The notes below the pieces were generated by a model. That model was not told the origin of the DNA, did no database searches, and saw only the letters and a list, made by a program, of their open reading frames with translations. Below are positions 1 to 15,533 of a stretch of 64,000 nucleotides of DNA, one piece after another (within the stretch, counting starts at the first letter, position 1; the number at the start of each line of letters is the position of its first letter). Both the position numbers and the translations under genes were made by a program. Origin of the DNA: Gemmatimonadaceae bacterium (GTDB lineage Bacteria; Gemmatimonadota; Gemmatimonadetes; Gemmatimonadales; Gemmatimonadaceae); assembly GCA_019186945.1 (NCBI GenBank), contig JABAQJ010000007.1:310001-374000 (forward strand), given 5' to 3'.

Positions 1-1475
1 GCCGGATCCAGCACTTCCAGCAGCGCGGACGCGGGGTCTCCCTGGAACGACGTCCCCAGTTTGTCGACCTCGTCCAGCAGGAAAATCGGGTTCTTGGTCC
101 CCGCTTGCTTCATCCCCTGGATGATCCGCCCGGGCATGGCACCAACGTACGTCCGGCGATGGCCGCGAATGTCCGCTTCGTCGCGGGCACCGCCTAACGC
201 CACGCGCACGTATTGCCGGCCAAGCGAACGCGCGATCGACTTGGCGATCGAGGTCTTTCCGACGCCGGGCGGTCCCACGAACAGCAGGATCGGACCCTTC
301 GCCATGGCTCGTGCCTTGGCCTCGCGCGCATCCGTAATCGGACGATCGTCGGGTTCGCCGTTCCCCAGGGTTGGCGTTGCGTCCTCCTTTGCAGTCTTCA
401 GCTTGGCCGCCGGGAACTCCCCGGTTCGCGTGACCTCCTCCGCGAGCTGCTGCGCTCGAAGCTGCCGCACCGCCAGGAACTCCAGGACGCGATCCTTCAC
501 GTCCTGCAACCCGTAGTGGTCCTCCTCCAGGATCTGCTCGGCGCGCTTCAAGTCGAGGAAATCGTCGGACCGCTTGTTCCATGGCAGTTCGGCGATCCAC
601 TCCAGATAGGTCCGGATCACCTGCGCTTCCATCGACTCTCGCCCGGTCCGTTCCAGTCTGCCGAGTTCGCGCTCGACTTCGGTTCGCGCCTCTTTGGGCA
701 GATCGAGCTTGGTCAGCCGGTCGCGAAGCTCCTGCACTTCCTTCGATTGATCGTCCTCGCCGAGTTCTTTCTGGATCGCCTTCATTTGCTCGCGCAGGAA
801 CATCTCGCGCTGACGCTCGCCGAGTTCCTCCTGGACCTGCGACTTGATTTCCTCCTGGGCTTCGAGCATGCCGATTTGCCGCTGCACGTGAACCAGGACG
901 CGGCGCAATCGCTCTTCTATGCTCAGGGTTTCCAGGAGGCCCTGCTTCTCCGGAACCGGGAGTTCCAGATAGCCGGCAACCAGATCCGCGAACCGTCCAG
1001 GTTCTTCGACCGCGTCGAGCACCTGATGCACAACCTCTTCTGGCAGACCGCGTCGCTCGCCAAGCTCAGCGGCGCGCTCGCGGCATTCCTTCTGGAGCGC
1101 CTCGAAGGCGGCATCGTGTTCGTTGAGTGGCGACATCTCCTCTGTCGGCATCACCACGGCCGTGAGGTAGCCGTCGCCTGGGACATACTGCAGCGAAGTC
1201 GCTCGCTGTTCGCCTTGCAGAAGGAGCTGGACGCCCCCCAGTCCGCGCTGGATCTGCCCGATGCGCGCTATGACGCCCATCGAGTACAGGATCTCCGGTT
1301 TCGGTTCGTCCTCGTTGTCTCTTTGCGCCACCGCGAACACCAGCCGATCGCCTTTCAGCGCCGCTTCGATCGCACGCAGCGTCCCCGGCCGTCCGGCCGC
1401 GATCGGCGCGGTCAGGCCGGGCAAAATGACAGTCCCGCGCAAAGGCAGGACGGGAAGAGTCTGTCGCGTAGCCAT
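1..1475 (-). CDS. lon: ATP-dependent Lon protease, N-terminal part (runs off window edge)
   Basis: Cytosolic AAA+ serine protease that degrades misfolded and regulatory proteins. About 491 residues are visible: the N-terminal substrate-binding domain beginning MATRQTLPVLPLRGTVILPG, a charged helical middle, and the start of the AAA+ module. Walker A GPPGVGKTS lies near residue 400, the RGHRRTYVGAMPGRI segment follows, and Walker B FLLDEVDK lies near 467. The proteolytic Ser-Lys domain is outside the window. The ATG at 1473-1475 gives the usual Lon N-terminus. The reading frame is open to the window edge, so the gene is cut by the window and is not broken. It is divergent from the kinase gene downstream. 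No CIRCE or HAIR heat-shock operator was recognised upstream; a short hairpin is present (see 1510-1525). Confidence 0.97.
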   Translation of the reverse strand, partial: MATRQTLPVLPLRGTVILPGLTAPIAAGRPGTLRAIEAALKGDRLVFAVAQRDNEDEPKPEILYSMGVIARIGQIQRGLGGVQLLLQGEQRATSLQYVPGDGYLTAVVMPTEEMSPLNEHDAAFEALQKECRERAAELGERRGLPEEVVHQVLDAVEEPGRFADLVAGYLELPVPEKQGLLETLSIEERLRRVLVHVQRQIGMLEAQEEIKSQVQEELGERQREMFLREQMKAIQKELGEDDQSKEVQELRDRLTKLDLPKEARTEVERELGRLERTGRESMEAQVIRTYLEWIAELPWNKRSDDFLDLKRAEQILEEDHYGLQDVKDRVLEFLAVRQLRAQQLAEEVTRTGEFPAAKLKTAKEDATPTLGNGEPDDRPITDAREAKARAMAKGPILLFVGPPGVGKTSIAKSIARSLGRQYVRVALGGARDEADIRGHRRTYVGAMPGRIIQGMKQAGTKNPIFLLDEVDKLGTSFQGDPASALLEVLDP

Positions 1476-1509
1476 CAGAGAGTCCCGGTTAGTGCATCGT
1501 AGTCGGACA

Positions 1510-1525
1510 TCGCCCCAACGGGCGA
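1510..1525 (-). other. Short perfect inverted repeat in the lon upstream region
   Basis: TCGCCC-CAAC-GGGCGA is a 6-bp perfect stem with a 4-nt loop, centred about 40 bp upstream of the lon start. It could be a 5'-UTR hairpin or an operator half. Nothing else in the 1476-1859 intergenic stretch was recognised, apart from a weaker GTACC/GGTAC repeat near 1550. Confidence 0.3.
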
Positions 1526-1859
1526 CAACTTGGAGCTTCCTGTACCACCTTGGTCACCAGGTACCATGCTTCGGATCCACTCGGAAATGGACCTGTACGG
1601 AGCGGCAGGCAGGAATCGCGCTGCTGAATTACGACACCTTGGCGGAGATTGCAACTTTGGAGAGTCGAAGTGACGTAGTGGCCTGACAGTTCGCGCATCG
1701 TGCGGCGCGACCTGGCCGACGCCGAAGTCTGAATTGCCGGCTGATGTTGCTGTAAGCGTCAAATTGCCAATGTCATACGACGTTCAGCGTTCTAGACGCT
1801 CCAGTAGACGCGTTGTACACTTCTCAGCTTGGAACAAACGACCCGAATCCGCCCAACGC

Positions 1860-3794
1860 GTGCCAGAACCTGTAGCATCCTCCGCAGCCGACGCTGAGCT
1901 GCGCACGCACGTTGAGCGCGTGTTGAGCGCGCACTACGAACTCGATCGCGAGATCGGGCGCGGAGGAATGGGGATCGTCTATCTGGCGCGCGATCGCCGG
2001 CTGAAACGCCAGGTCGCGATCAAATTGCTGCCGCCAGAACTTGCTTTTCGTTCCGAGATTCGGTCCCGGTTCCTGAAGGAGGCAGAAACAGCCGCTCAGC
2101 TGAGCCACCCGAACATCGTACCGATCTACTCGGTCGACGAACGCGAGGGGCTGGTCTATTTCGTCATGGCCTTCGTCGACGGCGAGAACCTCGCCGTTCG
2201 GTTGCACCGGGAAGGCGCTCTTAGCCCCGACGAGGCGCGCAGGATTCTGCTGGAAGTTGCGCGGGCGCTGGCCTACGCGCACGAACGCGGCGTCGTCCAT
2301 CGCGACATCAAGCCGGATAACATCCTGACGTCGGCGTCGGATGGGAGCGTGATGGTCACCGACTTCGGGATTGCCCGTGCCGTATCCGAGGGAGCGGACG
2401 CGCGTCTGACAGCCACCGGGATGGCGATCGGCACGCCGGCGTACATGTCACCCGAACAGTCGATGGGTGAGCGGCAGATCGACGGGCGCAGCGACCTGTA
2501 CTCGTTAGGCGTTGTCGGCTACCAGATGCTTTCTGGGGATCTGCCGTTCAGTGCCGCCAGTACGCCGGCTCTGCTGGTCAAGCAGATTTCGGAGCATCCC
2601 ACGCCATTGAGCGACCGCTGTCCACGTGCGCCTGCCGACCTGGCGCGCGCGGTCATGCTCATGCTCGAGAAGGATCCGGCCAACCGGTTCGCGACCGCGG
2701 CCGCGCTGGTGCAGGCGCTCGAGACGGGCATAGTGCCGGAGGCTCCCGCCAGACCGAAAGCGCTCGCACCTGTGCATCAGAAGGACCAGGCTCGCGCGGT
2801 CGTCGCCGAAGAATACCGCCCATCCAGTGAAGAGGTCACTCGCTGGAATGCCCCGGCTGTCGTCCATTTCCGGAAGAAGCTCGCACCATTCTTTGCGTTC
2901 AGCGCCGTCAGCGTCTTGCTGGCGATTGTCAACGTGCTGGATGGTTTGGTGGGCGTCGCTGGGATCTGGAGCGTGTTCCTCGCGTTCCAGTACGCGAAGC
3001 TCTGGACCGAGGGTTACGACTGGCGCGATGTGTTCAAGGAGCCGCGTGACCGTTTGTTCTTCGACGTAGTTGCGGAGTGGATGGACAGCGTGCGGGCACT
3101 ATGGGACGGCAAGAAGCGCGCTGAGATCCGGGAGCGTACGCGGTTGCGTGGCGGTCGCGGACCCGAGCTTTTCGCGCGCCAGCCATCGGCAGCCCTTCCG
3201 TCAGGCGGACTTACCGGACGGGAACTGGATGCCGCGGCCGGGCGTTACGCCTCGGTCGTGCGCGATGCACTCCGGAATCGTGACGACGCACTGCGCAATT
3301 TCCAGTCGCTCCCCAGGAGCGATCGCGATTCGATGTCGGAGATTCCGGAGACAGCCCAGGCGTTGTTTTCCCGGATCGAGGCGCTCGCGATGAACCTGGC
3401 GGATCTCGAGCGGAACGCCCCAGACGGTGGCGTCACGCCGATCGAGGACGAGATTCGGCGACTCGAGGCACAAGCGAATCCGCTCGACGTCCGTAACAGC
3501 GAGGAGCGCGTGCGACGCCTCGCATTCCTCAAGCGGCAGCGACGCGCGGTGAGCGATGTCTCCTCGAAGATCGAAAGGTCGCAGGATCGGCTAGATCGGT
3601 GCGTGCTGGCCTTGCAGAACATTCGTCTCGACTTGATGCGCCTGAAGGCCGGGAGCCAGACGGTCCAGCAGGTCACACTTGTCGCGGAACGGGCGATGGA
3701 CCTGGCACGAGAAGTCGAGAATGCCGCCTATGTTCAGGAGGAGATGGCGAAGCTGACGCGACGTCCGGTGCTGGGCGGGGGACCGCACTCGTGA
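1860..3794 (+). CDS. Membrane Ser/Thr protein kinase with C-terminal coiled coil (paralogue 1)
   Basis: PknB-type eukaryotic-like kinase that phosphorylates Ser/Thr on unknown targets. The glycine loop is IGRGGMG; VAIK carries the ATP lysine; HRDIKPDN is the catalytic loop; DFGIA and GTPAYMSPEQ complete the activation segment. After the kinase come two hydrophobic segments (FFAFSAVSVLLAIVNVL and a second ending FLAFQYAKLW), then an Arg/Glu-rich C-terminal half rich in heptad-like stretches, so the kinase and the coiled coil probably lie on the same side of the membrane. The frame is open from an ATG at 1734 with another ATG at 1770, but that leader is Arg/Ser-rich with AT-rich third positions. 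GTG 1860 matches the N-terminus of the next paralogue and is preferred. No clear ribosome site is visible. No PASTA or other known sensor domain is seen. Confidence 0.93.
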   Translation: MPEPVASSAADAELRTHVERVLSAHYELDREIGRGGMGIVYLARDRRLKRQVAIKLLPPELAFRSEIRSRFLKEAETAAQLSHPNIVPIYSVDEREGLVYFVMAFVDGENLAVRLHREGALSPDEARRILLEVARALAYAHERGVVHRDIKPDNILTSASDGSVMVTDFGIARAVSEGADARLTATGMAIGTPAYMSPEQSMGERQIDGRSDLYSLGVVGYQMLSGDLPFSAASTPALLVKQISEHPTPLSDRCPRAPADLARAVMLMLEKDPANRFATAAALVQALETGIVPEAPARPKALAPVHQKDQARAVVAEEYRPSSEEVTRWNAPAVVHFRKKLAPFFAFSAVSVLLAIVNVLDGLVGVAGIWSVFLAFQYAKLWTEGYDWRDVFKEPRDRLFFDVVAEWMDSVRALWDGKKRAEIRERTRLRGGRGPELFARQPSAALPSGGLTGRELDAAAGRYASVVRDALRNRDDALRNFQSLPRSDRDSMSEIPETAQALFSRIEALAMNLADLERNAPDGGVTPIEDEIRRLEAQANPLDVRNSEERVRRLAFLKRQRRAVSDVSSKIERSQDRLDRCVLALQNIRLDLMRLKAGSQTVQQVTLVAERAMDLAREVENAAYVQEEMAKLTRRPVLGGGPHS

Positions 3795-10078: not shown

Positions 10079-10498
10079 CTACCGCTTGACGCGTCCAAGC
10101 CGTGACACGGTGACAGTTTCCGCGATGGCGCCACGGGCGACGATGACACGAGTGTTGCTTGCCCCGAAGCCCATCGCGTTTCTGGCATACGTCACGGAGT
10201 CTCGGCTGGCGCGGATGGACACGCCGTAGAGCGCGCCGAGCGGTCGCACGTCGAGCGTGTCGCCGTAGGAGTGGATGGCCAGCGTTGCCGACGGGACGTC
10301 GAACGTGACGGCGGCGCGGACGGAGCGCTCGAAGGCGATCGCGCGAGCGCGCGAGAGCGCGGAGACGACGTCCATCGTTGCCGAGTGCACGCTGAGACGG
10401 TCGCGGAAGCGCGAGAAGCGTGGCATCGTGACTCCGGCCATGAGGGAAACGAGGGCGATGGCGACTGTGACCTGCGTAAGCGTGAATCCGTTTTTCAC
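10079..10498 (-). CDS. Type IV pseudopilin-like protein (GspH/FimT type) with Gln at position +5
   Basis: Prepilin-like N-terminus: short leader ending KNG, then FTLTQVTVAIALVSLMAGVTMP, which corresponds to the class III cleavage site followed by the hydrophobic assembly helix. Cleavage by prepilin peptidase would be between Gly and Phe. The normally invariant Glu at +5 is Gln here (codon CAG, one base from GAG). The rest (MDVVSALSRARAIAFERSVRAAVTFDV...) matches the GspH/FimT layout of minor pseudopilins. GTG 10498 gives a compact leader; GTG 10528 is an alternative that adds ten residues. No other pilin or secretion gene is adjacent, so it is an orphan in this window. The protein would be inserted in the inner membrane. 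Confidence 0.82.
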   Translation of the reverse strand: MKNGFTLTQVTVAIALVSLMAGVTMPRFSRFRDRLSVHSATMDVVSALSRARAIAFERSVRAAVTFDVPSATLAIHSYGDTLDVRPLGALYGVSIRASRDSVTYARNAMGFGASNTRVIVARGAIAETVTVSRLGRVKR

Positions 10499-10692
10499 GG
10501 CGTGTGTCCGGTAGAGGTGCCGGAACACAACGCCAATCCGACGGAGGGAGCATCATCATTCGGCTGCATCCGGTATCCTCGTTATGCGAGTTCCGTGCAG
10601 GGGAAAGATGGATTGGGAGTGGCCCGATGACGCGAGGGCGACGGTTCGCTAAGTTCAACGGGCGTGTTCTGCCCTCAACCTGCACGACGCCC

Positions 10693-10929
10693 ATGCGTGT
10701 TTCGATAGAATTCTGTGTGATGTGAAACTACGAACCGCGAGCCGTCGGTCTGGCGGCTGCGATTCGCGAGAGGTTCTCCGATGTCGAGCTCGAGATGATT
10801 CCGTCCAGCGGTGGGCGGTTCGAGGTCAAGCGCGACGGGGTACTCGTTTTCTCGAAGAAGGCACTCGGCCGTCACGCGCGAGCCGGGGAGGTCGTGCGGT
10901 TGCTCCAAGGCGGCGACCAGAGGGCATGA
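10693..10929 (+). CDS. SelW-like selenoprotein (Rdx/SelT-SelW-SelH family); UGA at 10723-10725 read as selenocysteine
   Basis: Small thioredoxin-like redox protein of 78 residues. Reading through the UGA at 10723-10725 gives an N-terminus MRVSIEFCVMU, so the UGA falls in the catalytic CxxU (CxxC) motif, followed by NYEPRAVGLAAAIRERF, a middle GGRFEVKRDGVLVFSKK and GRHARAGEVVRLL, ending in TGA 10927-10929. These are the conserved blocks of the SelW family in the right order and spacing (family members are about 85-100 residues). A SECIS-like hairpin starts 10 nt after the UGA (10736-10761). ATG 10693 gives the typical start MRVSIE; an open in-frame extension further upstream is not SelW-like. 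No strong ribosome site is seen. It lies 71 bp before pfkA on the same strand. Family role: thiol/selenol redox reactions; physiological partner unknown. Confidence 0.93.
10736..10761 (+). promoter_or_regulatory. Bacterial SECIS element for selenocysteine insertion
   Basis: RNA hairpin just 3' of the UGA. Upper stem AGCCGUC (10740-10746) pairs with GGCGGCU (10752-10758), seven pairs with one U-G wobble. The apical loop is GGUCU (10747-10751), the same pentanucleotide as in the well-studied E. coli fdhF SECIS. A lower stem CGC/GCG (10736-10738 with 10759-10761) is separated by one bulged G. The loop starts 22 nt after the UGA, within the range accepted for SelB-dependent decoding. The element is also coding sequence. 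Confidence 0.88.
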
Positions 10930-11000
10930 CCGAGAGTTGTGTCCCGCGTCGGCGTTCTGCCTCGCAGGAAGGCTCCTCAATTCCTGGGCCCTGATTCGAC

Positions 11001-12080
11001 ATGCGTATCGCGATTTCGACTGGTGGAGGCGACGCTCCAGGCCTTAACGCGGTCATTCGATCGTCAGCGCTTTCCGCAATCAGTCGCGGTTGGGACGTGC
11101 TTGGCATTTGCCGGGGATACTTTGGCCTGCTTGGTGAAGATCAGATCCTTCGTCTGACGCCGGATACGGTGCGGGGGATCGGTCACTTGGGGGGGACGAT
11201 TCTCCGTACCACGAATCGCGGAAACCCGTTCTCGTTCCCGGTCAAGCAGGCGGACGGCACGTACGTCGAGGTCGACCGTTCGCGCGAGATCATCGAGAAT
11301 GCGGGGAGACTGGGTATCGATGCCCTCATCACGATCGGCGGCGATGGCTCGCTAGGCATCGCCAACCGCCTTCATCAGCTTGGCATGAAGGTCGTCGGTG
11401 TTCCCAAGACGATTGACAACGATGTGAGCGGTACGATCACCACTTTCGGGTTTGACACCGCTGTCAACACGGCGATCGAGGCCATCGATAAGCTGCACAC
11501 TACTGCGGAGAGCCACGATCGTGTCATCGTGCTGGAGGTTATGGGCCGTCATGCTGGCTTCATTGCGTTGCACTCGGGCGTCGCCGGATCTGCAGACGTC
11601 ATCCTGATTCCGGAGATTCCGTTCGATATCGAGAAAGTCTGTGACAAGGTACGATCTCGAGATGCGAATGGTCGGCACTTCTCGATTGTGGTGGTGGCGG
11701 AGGGTGCGTTCACGATCGGGGGGCAGGAGTCGGTACTCGGTGAGTCGCTTCCCGGGCAGGCCAAGCGAGTTGGCGGAATAGCGGGGCGGATAGCCTGGGA
11801 GATACAGCAGAGGACTGGGAAAGAGGCGAGGTCGCTGGTTTTGGGTCATCTGCAGCGTGGGGGGGCACCTACCGGATACGATCGGTTGTTGGCAACCCGG
11901 TTCGGTGGTGCGGCGGTCGAGGCCGTCGAAGAGGGGAAATGGGGTCAGATGGTGGCGCTTCAGTCTCCGCATATCGTTACGATTTCGTTTGATGAGGCGC
12001 TTCGGGTGCCGAAGCGAGTGGATCCCGATCATGATGTCGTGAGGACGGCGCGTGCGTCGGGGATTTCGTTTGGGGACTAG
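11001..12080 (+). CDS. pfkA: 6-phosphofructokinase
   Basis: Phosphorylates fructose 6-phosphate to fructose 1,6-bisphosphate in glycolysis. Family blocks: MRIAISTGGGDAPGLNAVIR, GGDGSLGIANRL (phosphoryl-donor site), PKTIDNDVSGT (catalytic Asp), EVMGRHAGFIAL, and LGHLQRGGAPTGYDR. In this family Gly in GGDGS goes with ATP as donor, whereas Asp there goes with pyrophosphate; the Lys in PKTIDND is the residue found in the mixed group III enzymes. An ATP-dependent group III enzyme is therefore expected, but this needs assay. Length of 359 residues is normal for that group. Start ATG 11001. The gene is followed by REP-like repeats that may form its 3' end. Confidence 0.95.
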   Translation: MRIAISTGGGDAPGLNAVIRSSALSAISRGWDVLGICRGYFGLLGEDQILRLTPDTVRGIGHLGGTILRTTNRGNPFSFPVKQADGTYVEVDRSREIIENAGRLGIDALITIGGDGSLGIANRLHQLGMKVVGVPKTIDNDVSGTITTFGFDTAVNTAIEAIDKLHTTAESHDRVIVLEVMGRHAGFIALHSGVAGSADVILIPEIPFDIEKVCDKVRSRDANGRHFSIVVVAEGAFTIGGQESVLGESLPGQAKRVGGIAGRIAWEIQQRTGKEARSLVLGHLQRGGAPTGYDRLLATRFGGAAVEAVEEGKWGQMVALQSPHIVTISFDEALRVPKRVDPDHDVVRTARASGISFGD

Positions 12081-12824: not shown

Positions 12825-15533
12825 GTGATACGCGACGCCAGGGATCGATCCCTTCCTCCGGACCACAACGCGTTCGTCGCCGCAGAACCCGCGGCAGGGC
12901 GGGTGATCGTAATTGCGCCAACGCGCGCGGCGTGCGAGACGATCGAAATCGCTATCGGGCTGCACATCGACACGGTGATCGAGCGCGAGCATGGAGACGA
13001 GCTTCGCGCCTTGGCCTCGTCACGCCGCGGGTTCGGGATCGTCGCGGGAACGGGAACCGGCAAGACGCTCGCCATTCGCACGATCGCAGAGTCCCTCCTG
13101 GGCACGACCGCCTTGCGCACGGGAGTCGTCAATCGTGAGCGTGAGGCCACGCCGGAGACGCCGTTCTGGAACGTCATTGTCGTCACCACCGGGATCGCTC
13201 GGCGCTGGTTCCAGGACGGCGACATCCTGCCGAACGACACGCTTGTGGTTGACGAGATTCACCAGACGTCGGCGGAACTCGAACTCTGTCTCGCGTTAGG
13301 CAAGCGCGTTGGCTGCCGCTTCATCTGGCTTTCGGCGACCGTGGACCCGGCGTTCTACGCGCGCTATCTCGAATCGTTCGCGGTCATTCGTTCCCTGGCA
13401 TTCGATCCTGCACGCGCGGCCGACGTGCGGTGCGTGAACGAGACGCCGGAGCGATTCCTGTCAGATCGGTTCCTGCAGCAGGTGGCCAAGCAACGGCGAG
13501 GTGTAGGGATGTTCCTGCCGACGCGGGCGGGTGTCGAAAAGGTGGTGGAGAACGTTCGCGACCGGGCGCCGCGCCTGGAGGCCGCGTTCTACCATGGTGG
13601 CGAACCGATCCGCACGATCCGACCGTTCCTCGAGGAGGGAGTGCCGAAACCGTTCTTCCTGGCGATGACCGCCGCCGGTCAGAGTGCGCTCAACGTGAAG
13701 GGGCTGGACACGGTGGTGATCGACGACACCCGATTCGCCAACGTCGTCGAGCGCGGGAAGAACGTGCTGACGCGAATGCACCTTGGAGCGAACGAGATAC
13801 TGCAGATGGCTGGACGCGTGCACGGTCGCGTCGAACATGGCAAGGTGTTCATCCTGACAGACAGGACTCTCGATTTCGCCGCCTTGACGCCGACGGCACC
13901 CGAGTTTCAGCTGGCGGGCGACGCCGAACGGGTCGCGCTGACCTGCGCTGCCCTTGGCGTCCGCGCGGATGACCTGGATCTGCCGGTGCCGCTCGATCGC
14001 CAGGCGTATCGACAGGCGGTCGTGCGTCTGGAGGAACGCGGACTGGTGGATCAAGGGCGATTGACGCGCTACGGATCGATCGTGGAAGCGCTCCCCGCGG
14101 AGCGCGAGTGGGCCGAGCTCATCGCGCATGGCGAAGACGCGCTGCTTCCGTTTCTGGCGGTCATGGCATCGGTGGAATCGCTGCATCGCATGACCCGGGA
14201 CGAGCGCAACCTGGAGGGGCTCATCGTCGGCGGAAGCGATCACCTTACCAGCTACAACGTGTACGCGGATGCATATGCGCGGGCGGGATACGTGGGCGAG
14301 GTGTATGGCCTGCCCCGTCACCTCTTCGCCGAGGCCCGAATCGAGCGTTGGGCAGAGCGGCGAGGCGTGCTGGTGAAGGCGATCGAGGATGCCGCGCTGG
14401 CCATGGCCAGTATCTATCGCAGCGTTGGCGTGGCGCTCCCGGCGTCCATGCCGCGCGTGTCGGACGAAATCGATCGCGGGTTCCGCAACCTTGTCGCGCG
14501 CATCATGCCGTTCGATCTGGCGATCGACGAAACGACGGCAGATGGCGACGAAGCGCGCGTGTCGAAGACCAGCGTCTGCGGATCGTGGGGTGCCATCGCC
14601 GGGACCGTACGATACTTCGCAGATCGTTTCGGGATACCGCGTGCGTCGATCGAAGGGACTCAGATACCGGCTGCCATGTTGCGACAACATGCGCACACCG
14701 GTGATGGCGTCCTGCACTTCGATAACAAGCGCAAGCGAGATATGTTGCTCCTCCAGCGACGTCTGACCTACCACGGGTTCGAACTCGATCGCGAAGAGGA
14801 GACCGTTGACCAGTTTCCCACGGATCTGGCGAAGGCAGCCAGACGGATGCTGGCGGAAGCGCTGGCCCGGGAGGAGGCGAGGCATCCGGCCGTGCGCCGG
14901 AATCGCCCGGATGTCGAGACGATTCGCGAATTGTACCGTCGATCCGGGGGAGGGACACGCCGCCTTGGGTTCGCAGAACTGGCGGAGCTGTACGAGCGGT
15001 CGATGAGCGAGGTGCAGTCGATGCACGAGTATTCCGCTGCTGCGCTTCGCCTCCCGCTCGATGGCTGGATAGACGCTGCGGAGCGCGATCGGCTCATGGC
15101 ACTCCCGTCTCGAGTGCACGTACGCGGCAAGACAGTCTCGATAGAGTACGATGTCGAGTCCGAGGCGCTCGAGTCAGGAGAGCGCCTGACAGGCGTGGCG
15201 CGGTTTGTGCTGCCGGAAAAGCTCGCGCGCACGCTGACAGAGATCGAGCTGCCGGTTCTGGATCGCCCGCTCCGATTCGTGGTGCATCGTGGTCAGCGTG
15301 GCGCGGTACATGCCAAGTCGTTAGGTGAGCTGCAGGAGATCCTGGAGCGTCCGTGGATGCCCGCGGAGGTAGCGGCGCAGCGTGCGGCACGGGAGGAGTC
15401 GCGTACGGCGCATCAGCGGCAACGGCGCGCGATAGACGAGCGGAGGATCGTCGGGGAGTTCAGGCGCGCCGGGAGTGGCGGCCGTGGCGGGGAGCGCCGC
15501 GGTACGGGACGAGATCGACGTCGTCGTGGCTAG
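12825..15533 (+). CDS. DEAH/DEIH-box ATP-dependent helicase, HrpA-like
   Basis: Large SF2 helicase of 902 residues. Walker A is AGTGTGKT near residue 74, motif II VVDEIH near 142, motif III LSATV near 170. A second RecA domain has GVGMFLPTRAGVEKVVENV and a motif VI-like QMAGRVHGR; a winged-helix/ratchet-like region follows (LDRQAYRQAVVRLEERGLVDQGRLTRYG). The C-terminal half (about residues 500-860) resembles the long accessory domains of HrpA/HrpB-type RNA helicases only loosely, and the tail is very Arg/Gly-rich, suggesting nucleic-acid contact. GTG 12825 is the first start in frame. The 3' end overlaps the stop codon of the convergent CGNR gene by 4 bp. RNA remodelling is likely; a DNA role is not excluded. 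Confidence 0.82.
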   Translation: MIRDARDRSLPPDHNAFVAAEPAAGRVIVIAPTRAACETIEIAIGLHIDTVIEREHGDELRALASSRRGFGIVAGTGTGKTLAIRTIAESLLGTTALRTGVVNREREATPETPFWNVIVVTTGIARRWFQDGDILPNDTLVVDEIHQTSAELELCLALGKRVGCRFIWLSATVDPAFYARYLESFAVIRSLAFDPARAADVRCVNETPERFLSDRFLQQVAKQRRGVGMFLPTRAGVEKVVENVRDRAPRLEAAFYHGGEPIRTIRPFLEEGVPKPFFLAMTAAGQSALNVKGLDTVVIDDTRFANVVERGKNVLTRMHLGANEILQMAGRVHGRVEHGKVFILTDRTLDFAALTPTAPEFQLAGDAERVALTCAALGVRADDLDLPVPLDRQAYRQAVVRLEERGLVDQGRLTRYGSIVEALPAEREWAELIAHGEDALLPFLAVMASVESLHRMTRDERNLEGLIVGGSDHLTSYNVYADAYARAGYVGEVYGLPRHLFAEARIERWAERRGVLVKAIEDAALAMASIYRSVGVALPASMPRVSDEIDRGFRNLVARIMPFDLAIDETTADGDEARVSKTSVCGSWGAIAGTVRYFADRFGIPRASIEGTQIPAAMLRQHAHTGDGVLHFDNKRKRDMLLLQRRLTYHGFELDREEETVDQFPTDLAKAARRMLAEALAREEARHPAVRRNRPDVETIRELYRRSGGGTRRLGFAELAELYERSMSEVQSMHEYSAAALRLPLDGWIDAAERDRLMALPSRVHVRGKTVSIEYDVESEALESGERLTGVARFVLPEKLARTLTEIELPVLDRPLRFVVHRGQRGAVHAKSLGELQEILERPWMPAEVAAQRAAREESRTAHQRQRRAIDERRIVGEFRRAGSGGRGGERRGTGRDRRRRG

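Follow-up and report, generated by a model that had tools for sequence, protein, structure and literature searches.

An In-Frame UGA in a SelW-Like Gene

The locus at positions 10693-10929 of the window (the whole stretch of Gemmatimonadaceae DNA analysed here, 64 kb long) raises the question of whether a UGA codon near the start of a short frame terminates translation or is read as selenocysteine (Sec). Read with TGA as Sec, the forward strand at 10693-10929 is a single open frame of 78 residues, with an ATG at 10693 and a terminal UGA at 10927-10929. The product is MRVSIEFCVMUNYEPRAVGLAAAIRERFSDVELEMIPSSGGRFEVKRDGVLVFSKKALGRHARAGEVVRLLQGGDQRA. The gene almost certainly encodes a SelW-like (Rdx) selenoprotein, with a predicted Sec11 at the UGA at 10723-10725. 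This reading draws on three features of the sequence: a frame constrained through the UGA, a hairpin with a [GA]G loop at fixed spacing behind it, and SelA, SelB, SelD, and tRNA-Sec(UCA) encoded in the genome. The gene is real, and standard stop-codon gene calling would cut it at codon 11.

Profile searches in which U was replaced by C placed the product above the curated cut-offs of three models. These are Pfam PF10262 (Rdx; 67 bits vs. a cut-off of 22.6, E 1.8e-18, residues 2-71), TIGR02174 (59.1 bits vs. 34.2), and NF041051 (SelTWH_Campy; 94.9 bits vs. 88), the last being the best NCBIfam model. The UGA lies in the CxxU redox motif C8-V-M-U11 (TGT GTG ATG TGA, 10714-10725, forward strand), which every readable orthologue shares if its genome has Sec machinery. 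Sec occupies the second redox position of CxxU, where the homologues of two genomes lacking detectable selA and selB (G128 and G422) have Cys. Thus, the sequence-only reading of this DNA was right to place the UGA in the CxxU of a SelW protein with U at position 11, and its statement that frame and conserved blocks go on past the UGA agrees with the 78-residue frame and with the constraint on the downstream codons described below. The product also matches, over residues 2-64, Cys-type Rdx proteins of known structure (2fa8, 2obk, 2oka, 2ojl, 2p0g, and 3dex), which, unlike the window gene, are not known to carry Sec. We found no clear Shine-Dalgarno sequence before the ATG. A promoter and terminator scan yielded nothing resembling a sigma-70 promoter and, on the opposite strand, a single terminator at chance level.

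Selenocysteine Machinery in the Source Genome

Family searches of the source genome (G000; 3.95 Mb, 20 contigs, estimated 100% complete) recovered the full Sec-decoding trait, with selA, selB, selC, and selD all on contig C6. The selB gene lies at C6:77645-79489 (350 bits vs. a cut-off of 242), selA at C6:264610-265926 (508 bits), and selD at C6:6788-7708 (373 bits, one in-frame TGA, motif CAGU-AAK). The tRNA-Sec gene (selC) is located at C6:6596-6688 (70.5 bits), and its anticodon is tca according to ARAGORN. The sequence-only reading had proposed a search for these four genes, had named a genome without selB, selC, and selD as evidence against a selenoprotein, and had remarked that the implied machinery lies outside the window. 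That remark proved right, since the window is on contig C2 and the sel genes are on C6; ARAGORN found no tRNA in the 64-kb window.

The selD gene (L009, about 1405-2460, minus strand, corresponding to G000:C6:6788-7708) adjoins the tRNA-Sec gene, and its own in-frame UGA makes it a second predicted selenoprotein gene of this genome. We also considered FdhA as a further Sec client. Its best homologue (G000:C4:296817-299045) has no internal stop and apparently has Cys where Sec would usually stand; formate dehydrogenase is therefore no evident client here.

Sec and Cys Forms Across Gemmatimonadota

Rdx matches occur in 193 of 395 Gemmatimonadota genomes. Among the matches listed, 145 genomes have a SelW bearing exactly one in-frame TGA. 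Most of these also encode selB (132 of the 145, at E <= 1e-60), and 12 of the 13 others have selA. The single listed genome in which neither was found (G354) is a fragmented assembly, 82% complete; most relatives are MAGs, so missing genes may be assembly gaps. In a family-level sample, 107 of 179 genomes match the window protein, nearly all with one TGA. An independent collection, whose records are mostly titled Gemmatimonadetes or Gemmatimonadaceae, provided 80 loci; 79 of them were scorable, each with TGA at the Sec codon. Together with kinship at the level of whole genomes, these matches assign the window to Gemmatimonadota. A stop or frameshift elsewhere in the gene of close relatives, which had been named as evidence against the reading, is thus not the pattern found, and the retrieved relatives that are readable and come from genomes with Sec machinery all share the position of the TGA codon. 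Downstream of the hairpin described below, the proportion of nonsynonymous differences is about half that of synonymous ones (pN 0.33 vs. pS 0.66), which argues that the stretch after the UGA is translated and under protein-level constraint.

In two relatives from genus g2, G128 and G422 (loci L095 and L096), the sequence matching the window protein has no stop. Here the redox motif is CVGC, TGC takes the place of the Sec codon, and the gene has the same position upstream of pfkA. The loop codon has changed to GCG or GCC, and the loop motif of the hairpin is lost. In neither genome did we find selA or a selB match above the cut-off. G128 is a complete single-contig assembly (100% complete) and G422 is 71% complete, so the weight of this comparison rests on G128. 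The UGA and the loop motif are thus both missing where the machinery went undetected, which amounts to a natural Sec/Cys experiment. The stretch reads N in a third stop-free match, G428, and is unreadable there.

These data bear on the possibility that the UGA genuinely ends translation or results from a sequencing error, the gene being a pseudogene or a Cys-type SelW with TGC or TGT misread. The Cys forms of G128 and G422 speak in its favor, but both sit in genomes that yielded neither selA nor selB. The same TGA in 145 listed genomes of the phylum and in all scored loci of the second collection, conserved across independent assemblies, refutes this explanation, and the protein-level selection that persists after the UGA speaks against it too. 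We consider it hardly credible.

Other observations concern the wider phylum. A further Rdx subfamily, free of stops and scoring much higher against Pfam, is present in G363, G212, G052, G195, and G071 (L022-L026) and coexists with the Sec-type SelW in G071, G363, and G212. In 108 genomes of the phylum sample, selB occurs without an Rdx match, which makes further Sec clients in Gemmatimonadota probable. Sec-type SelW genes with AGTTT loops were also retrieved from records titled Gammaproteobacteria and Calditrichaeota (L159, L166, L179), reflecting either transfer or mislabelled MAGs.

A SECIS Hairpin Under Selection as RNA

Folding, pair counts, and a synonymous permutation test delineate a putative bacterial SECIS hairpin at 10731-10766 on the forward strand. 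It has an outer stem (10731-10734 with 10763-10766), a 7-bp upper stem (10740-10746 with 10752-10758), and the apical loop GGUCU at 10747-10751, 21 nt after the UGA (the gap being 10726-10746). The sequence-only reading had described a hairpin with this loop, which the fold of 10726-10770 it had proposed recovers; its placement of the start 10 nt downstream of the UGA was slightly inaccurate, as the outer stem begins 6 nt and the upper stem 15 nt past the UGA. A published model of the bacterial SECIS specifies an apical loop of 3-9 nt, an upper stem of 4-16 bp, a G within the first two loop positions, a UGA-loop distance of 16-37 nt, and a minimum free energy <= -7.5 kcal/mol (as quoted in PMC13188914). 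The window hairpin falls within each of these limits, with its 5-nt loop, 7-bp upper stem, GGUCU sequence, spacing of 21 nt, and fold energy of -20.7 kcal/mol. Against shuffled sequences the z-score is -2.2 for 10726-10770 and -0.9 for 10716-10776, so that the single sequence folds mildly better than its shuffles. Single-sequence fold energy alone is unremarkable; it is conservation that lifts the hairpin above chance, in the form of the family score, the same-codon TGA, and covariation at synonymous sites. An Rfam scan of 10400-11200 returned no SECIS family. A sub-threshold SAM riboswitch match at 10594-10686 (21.1 bits vs. a gathering threshold of 44.4, E 0.054) is probably due to chance.

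We compared the first 48 nt, counted from the UGA, of 60 loci representing 59 distinct sequences. The loop conforms to [GA]G[TG][CT]T in all 59 (GGTCT, AGTTT, AGTCT, AGGTT, or AGGCT), and its second base is always G. The codon used in the loop is fixed for each amino acid: GGT in 24/24 sequences with Gly, AGT in 29/29 with Ser, and AGG in 6/6 with Arg. These are minority codons, accounting for 19%, 9%, and 5.5%, respectively, of their synonymous sets in six genes of the window. In the upper stem, 393 of 413 cells are paired vs. 368 +/- 2 when synonymous codons are shuffled within each column, a permutation that does not preserve relatedness, and none of 500 permutations reached the observed value. 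Third-position pair 17-35 is G-C in 37 sequences, A-T in 12, and C-G in five, and pair 20-32 is C-G in 53 and G-C in four. The rarer pair states are not confined to a single genus or family (C-G, for instance, occurs in g58, g50, g20, and g3), and compensatory states therefore likely arose repeatedly, as judged by this taxonomic scatter rather than by a count on a tree. Synonymous differences in the SECIS codons are about half as frequent as downstream (pS 0.38 vs. 0.66).

The hairpin might instead be no SECIS and simply reflect the codon composition of a coding region rich in GC. The weak single-sequence z-scores favor such an origin, but third-position covariation, the invariant loop G, and the fixation of minority codons in the loop are against it, as are the lower pS of the SECIS codons and the disappearance of the loop motif from the Cys forms. 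This origin is extremely improbable, and by these comparisons selection acts on the SECIS hairpin at the RNA level. Protein family and RNA element, which the sequence-only reading had put forward as two supports, both held up, the former through models above their cut-offs and the latter through compensatory changes at synonymous sites.

A frame open through the UGA would also be seen if the codon were read by a near-cognate tRNA or were reassigned to Trp. Yet the UGA occupies a redox position that is Cys in two relatives, a SECIS-like hairpin under RNA-level selection follows it, and the genome encodes tRNA-Sec(UCA), SelA, SelB, and SelD. Moreover, the gene itself terminates in UGA, as do many relatives. 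Such decoding is very unlikely, if marginally less so than the two preceding explanations.

If selenocysteine is inserted as predicted, then by analogy with the established mechanism of E. coli, SelB carrying GTP and Sec-tRNA-Sec would bind the loop, and selenocysteine would be delivered at the UGA in place of release by RF2. Family chemistry suggests that Cys8 and Sec11 would pair as a selenenylsulfide within a thioredoxin-like fold. The CxxU motif and Rdx membership point to thiol/selenol redox chemistry as the probable role of the selW product.

Relation to Known SelW-Like Selenoproteins

The apical loop of the E. coli fdhF SECIS is GGUCU and lies shortly after the UGA. The window hairpin has the same loop, at a spacing of 21 nt, on a stem of different sequence.

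Bacterial SelW-like CxxU selenoproteins were described in 2005-2006 (PMC1088965, PMC1794560). They outnumbered every other family in the Sargasso Sea set (PMC1088965), and a 2006 table of bacterial members lists ten, with few Cys forms in Sec-using organisms (PMC1794560). SelW genes overlooked by annotation are known from Epsilonproteobacteria (PMC4607533), and a 2026 review includes the family (PF10262, CxxU) and leaves Gemmatimonadota unmentioned (PMC13188914). Searches for Gemmatimonadetes or Gemmatimonadota together with selenoproteins or selenocysteine gave, by title or abstract, nothing on a SelW-like gene. As SelW-like selenoproteins are already catalogued in bacteria, the window gene is a further member of a known family (PF10262/TIGR02174/NF041051), with which it shares the small Rdx product, the Sec in a CxxU motif near the N terminus, and the bacterial SECIS directly after the UGA. 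It differs in being spread through much of Gemmatimonadota, often beside pfkA, and its sequence is otherwise ordinary. The epsilonproteobacterial SelW is close in that NF041051 (SelTWH_Campy) is the best NCBIfam model for the window product, but it belongs to another phylum.

The additions made here are modest: the phylum-wide spread, the frequent adjacency to pfkA, and the natural Sec/Cys experiment. They leave the understanding of selenocysteine decoding unchanged. A SelW-like selenoprotein is widespread in Gemmatimonadota, and the phylum offers a clean comparative system in which Sec and Cys versions of one gene occupy one locus. The 59 natural variants allow the sequence limits of the SECIS to be read.

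Genomic Neighborhood

The pfkA gene (phosphofructokinase; 11001-12080, forward strand, PF00365 E 4.4e-101), which is context and not part of the selenoprotein gene, begins 71 nt downstream of the selW-like gene. It lies just downstream of SelW in 46 of 59 loci, and the two stay side by side across several Gemmatimonadota families. Co-transcription of the two is plausible. We considered a special linkage between SelW and pfkA, an idea undercut by conservation of the whole surrounding block, in which the upstream GspH-like gene is kept in 30 and the downstream helicase in 40 of the 59 loci. The adjacency is thus weak evidence, and a partnership in which SelW would work with phosphofructokinase, perhaps tying glycolytic flux or the thiol state of the enzyme to cellular redox, strikes us as improbable.

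The helicase-like protein (12825-15533) has 902 residues and a marginal Pfam DEAD match as its sole domain assignment. Many relatives keep it close to SelW, with identities of about 70-80%.
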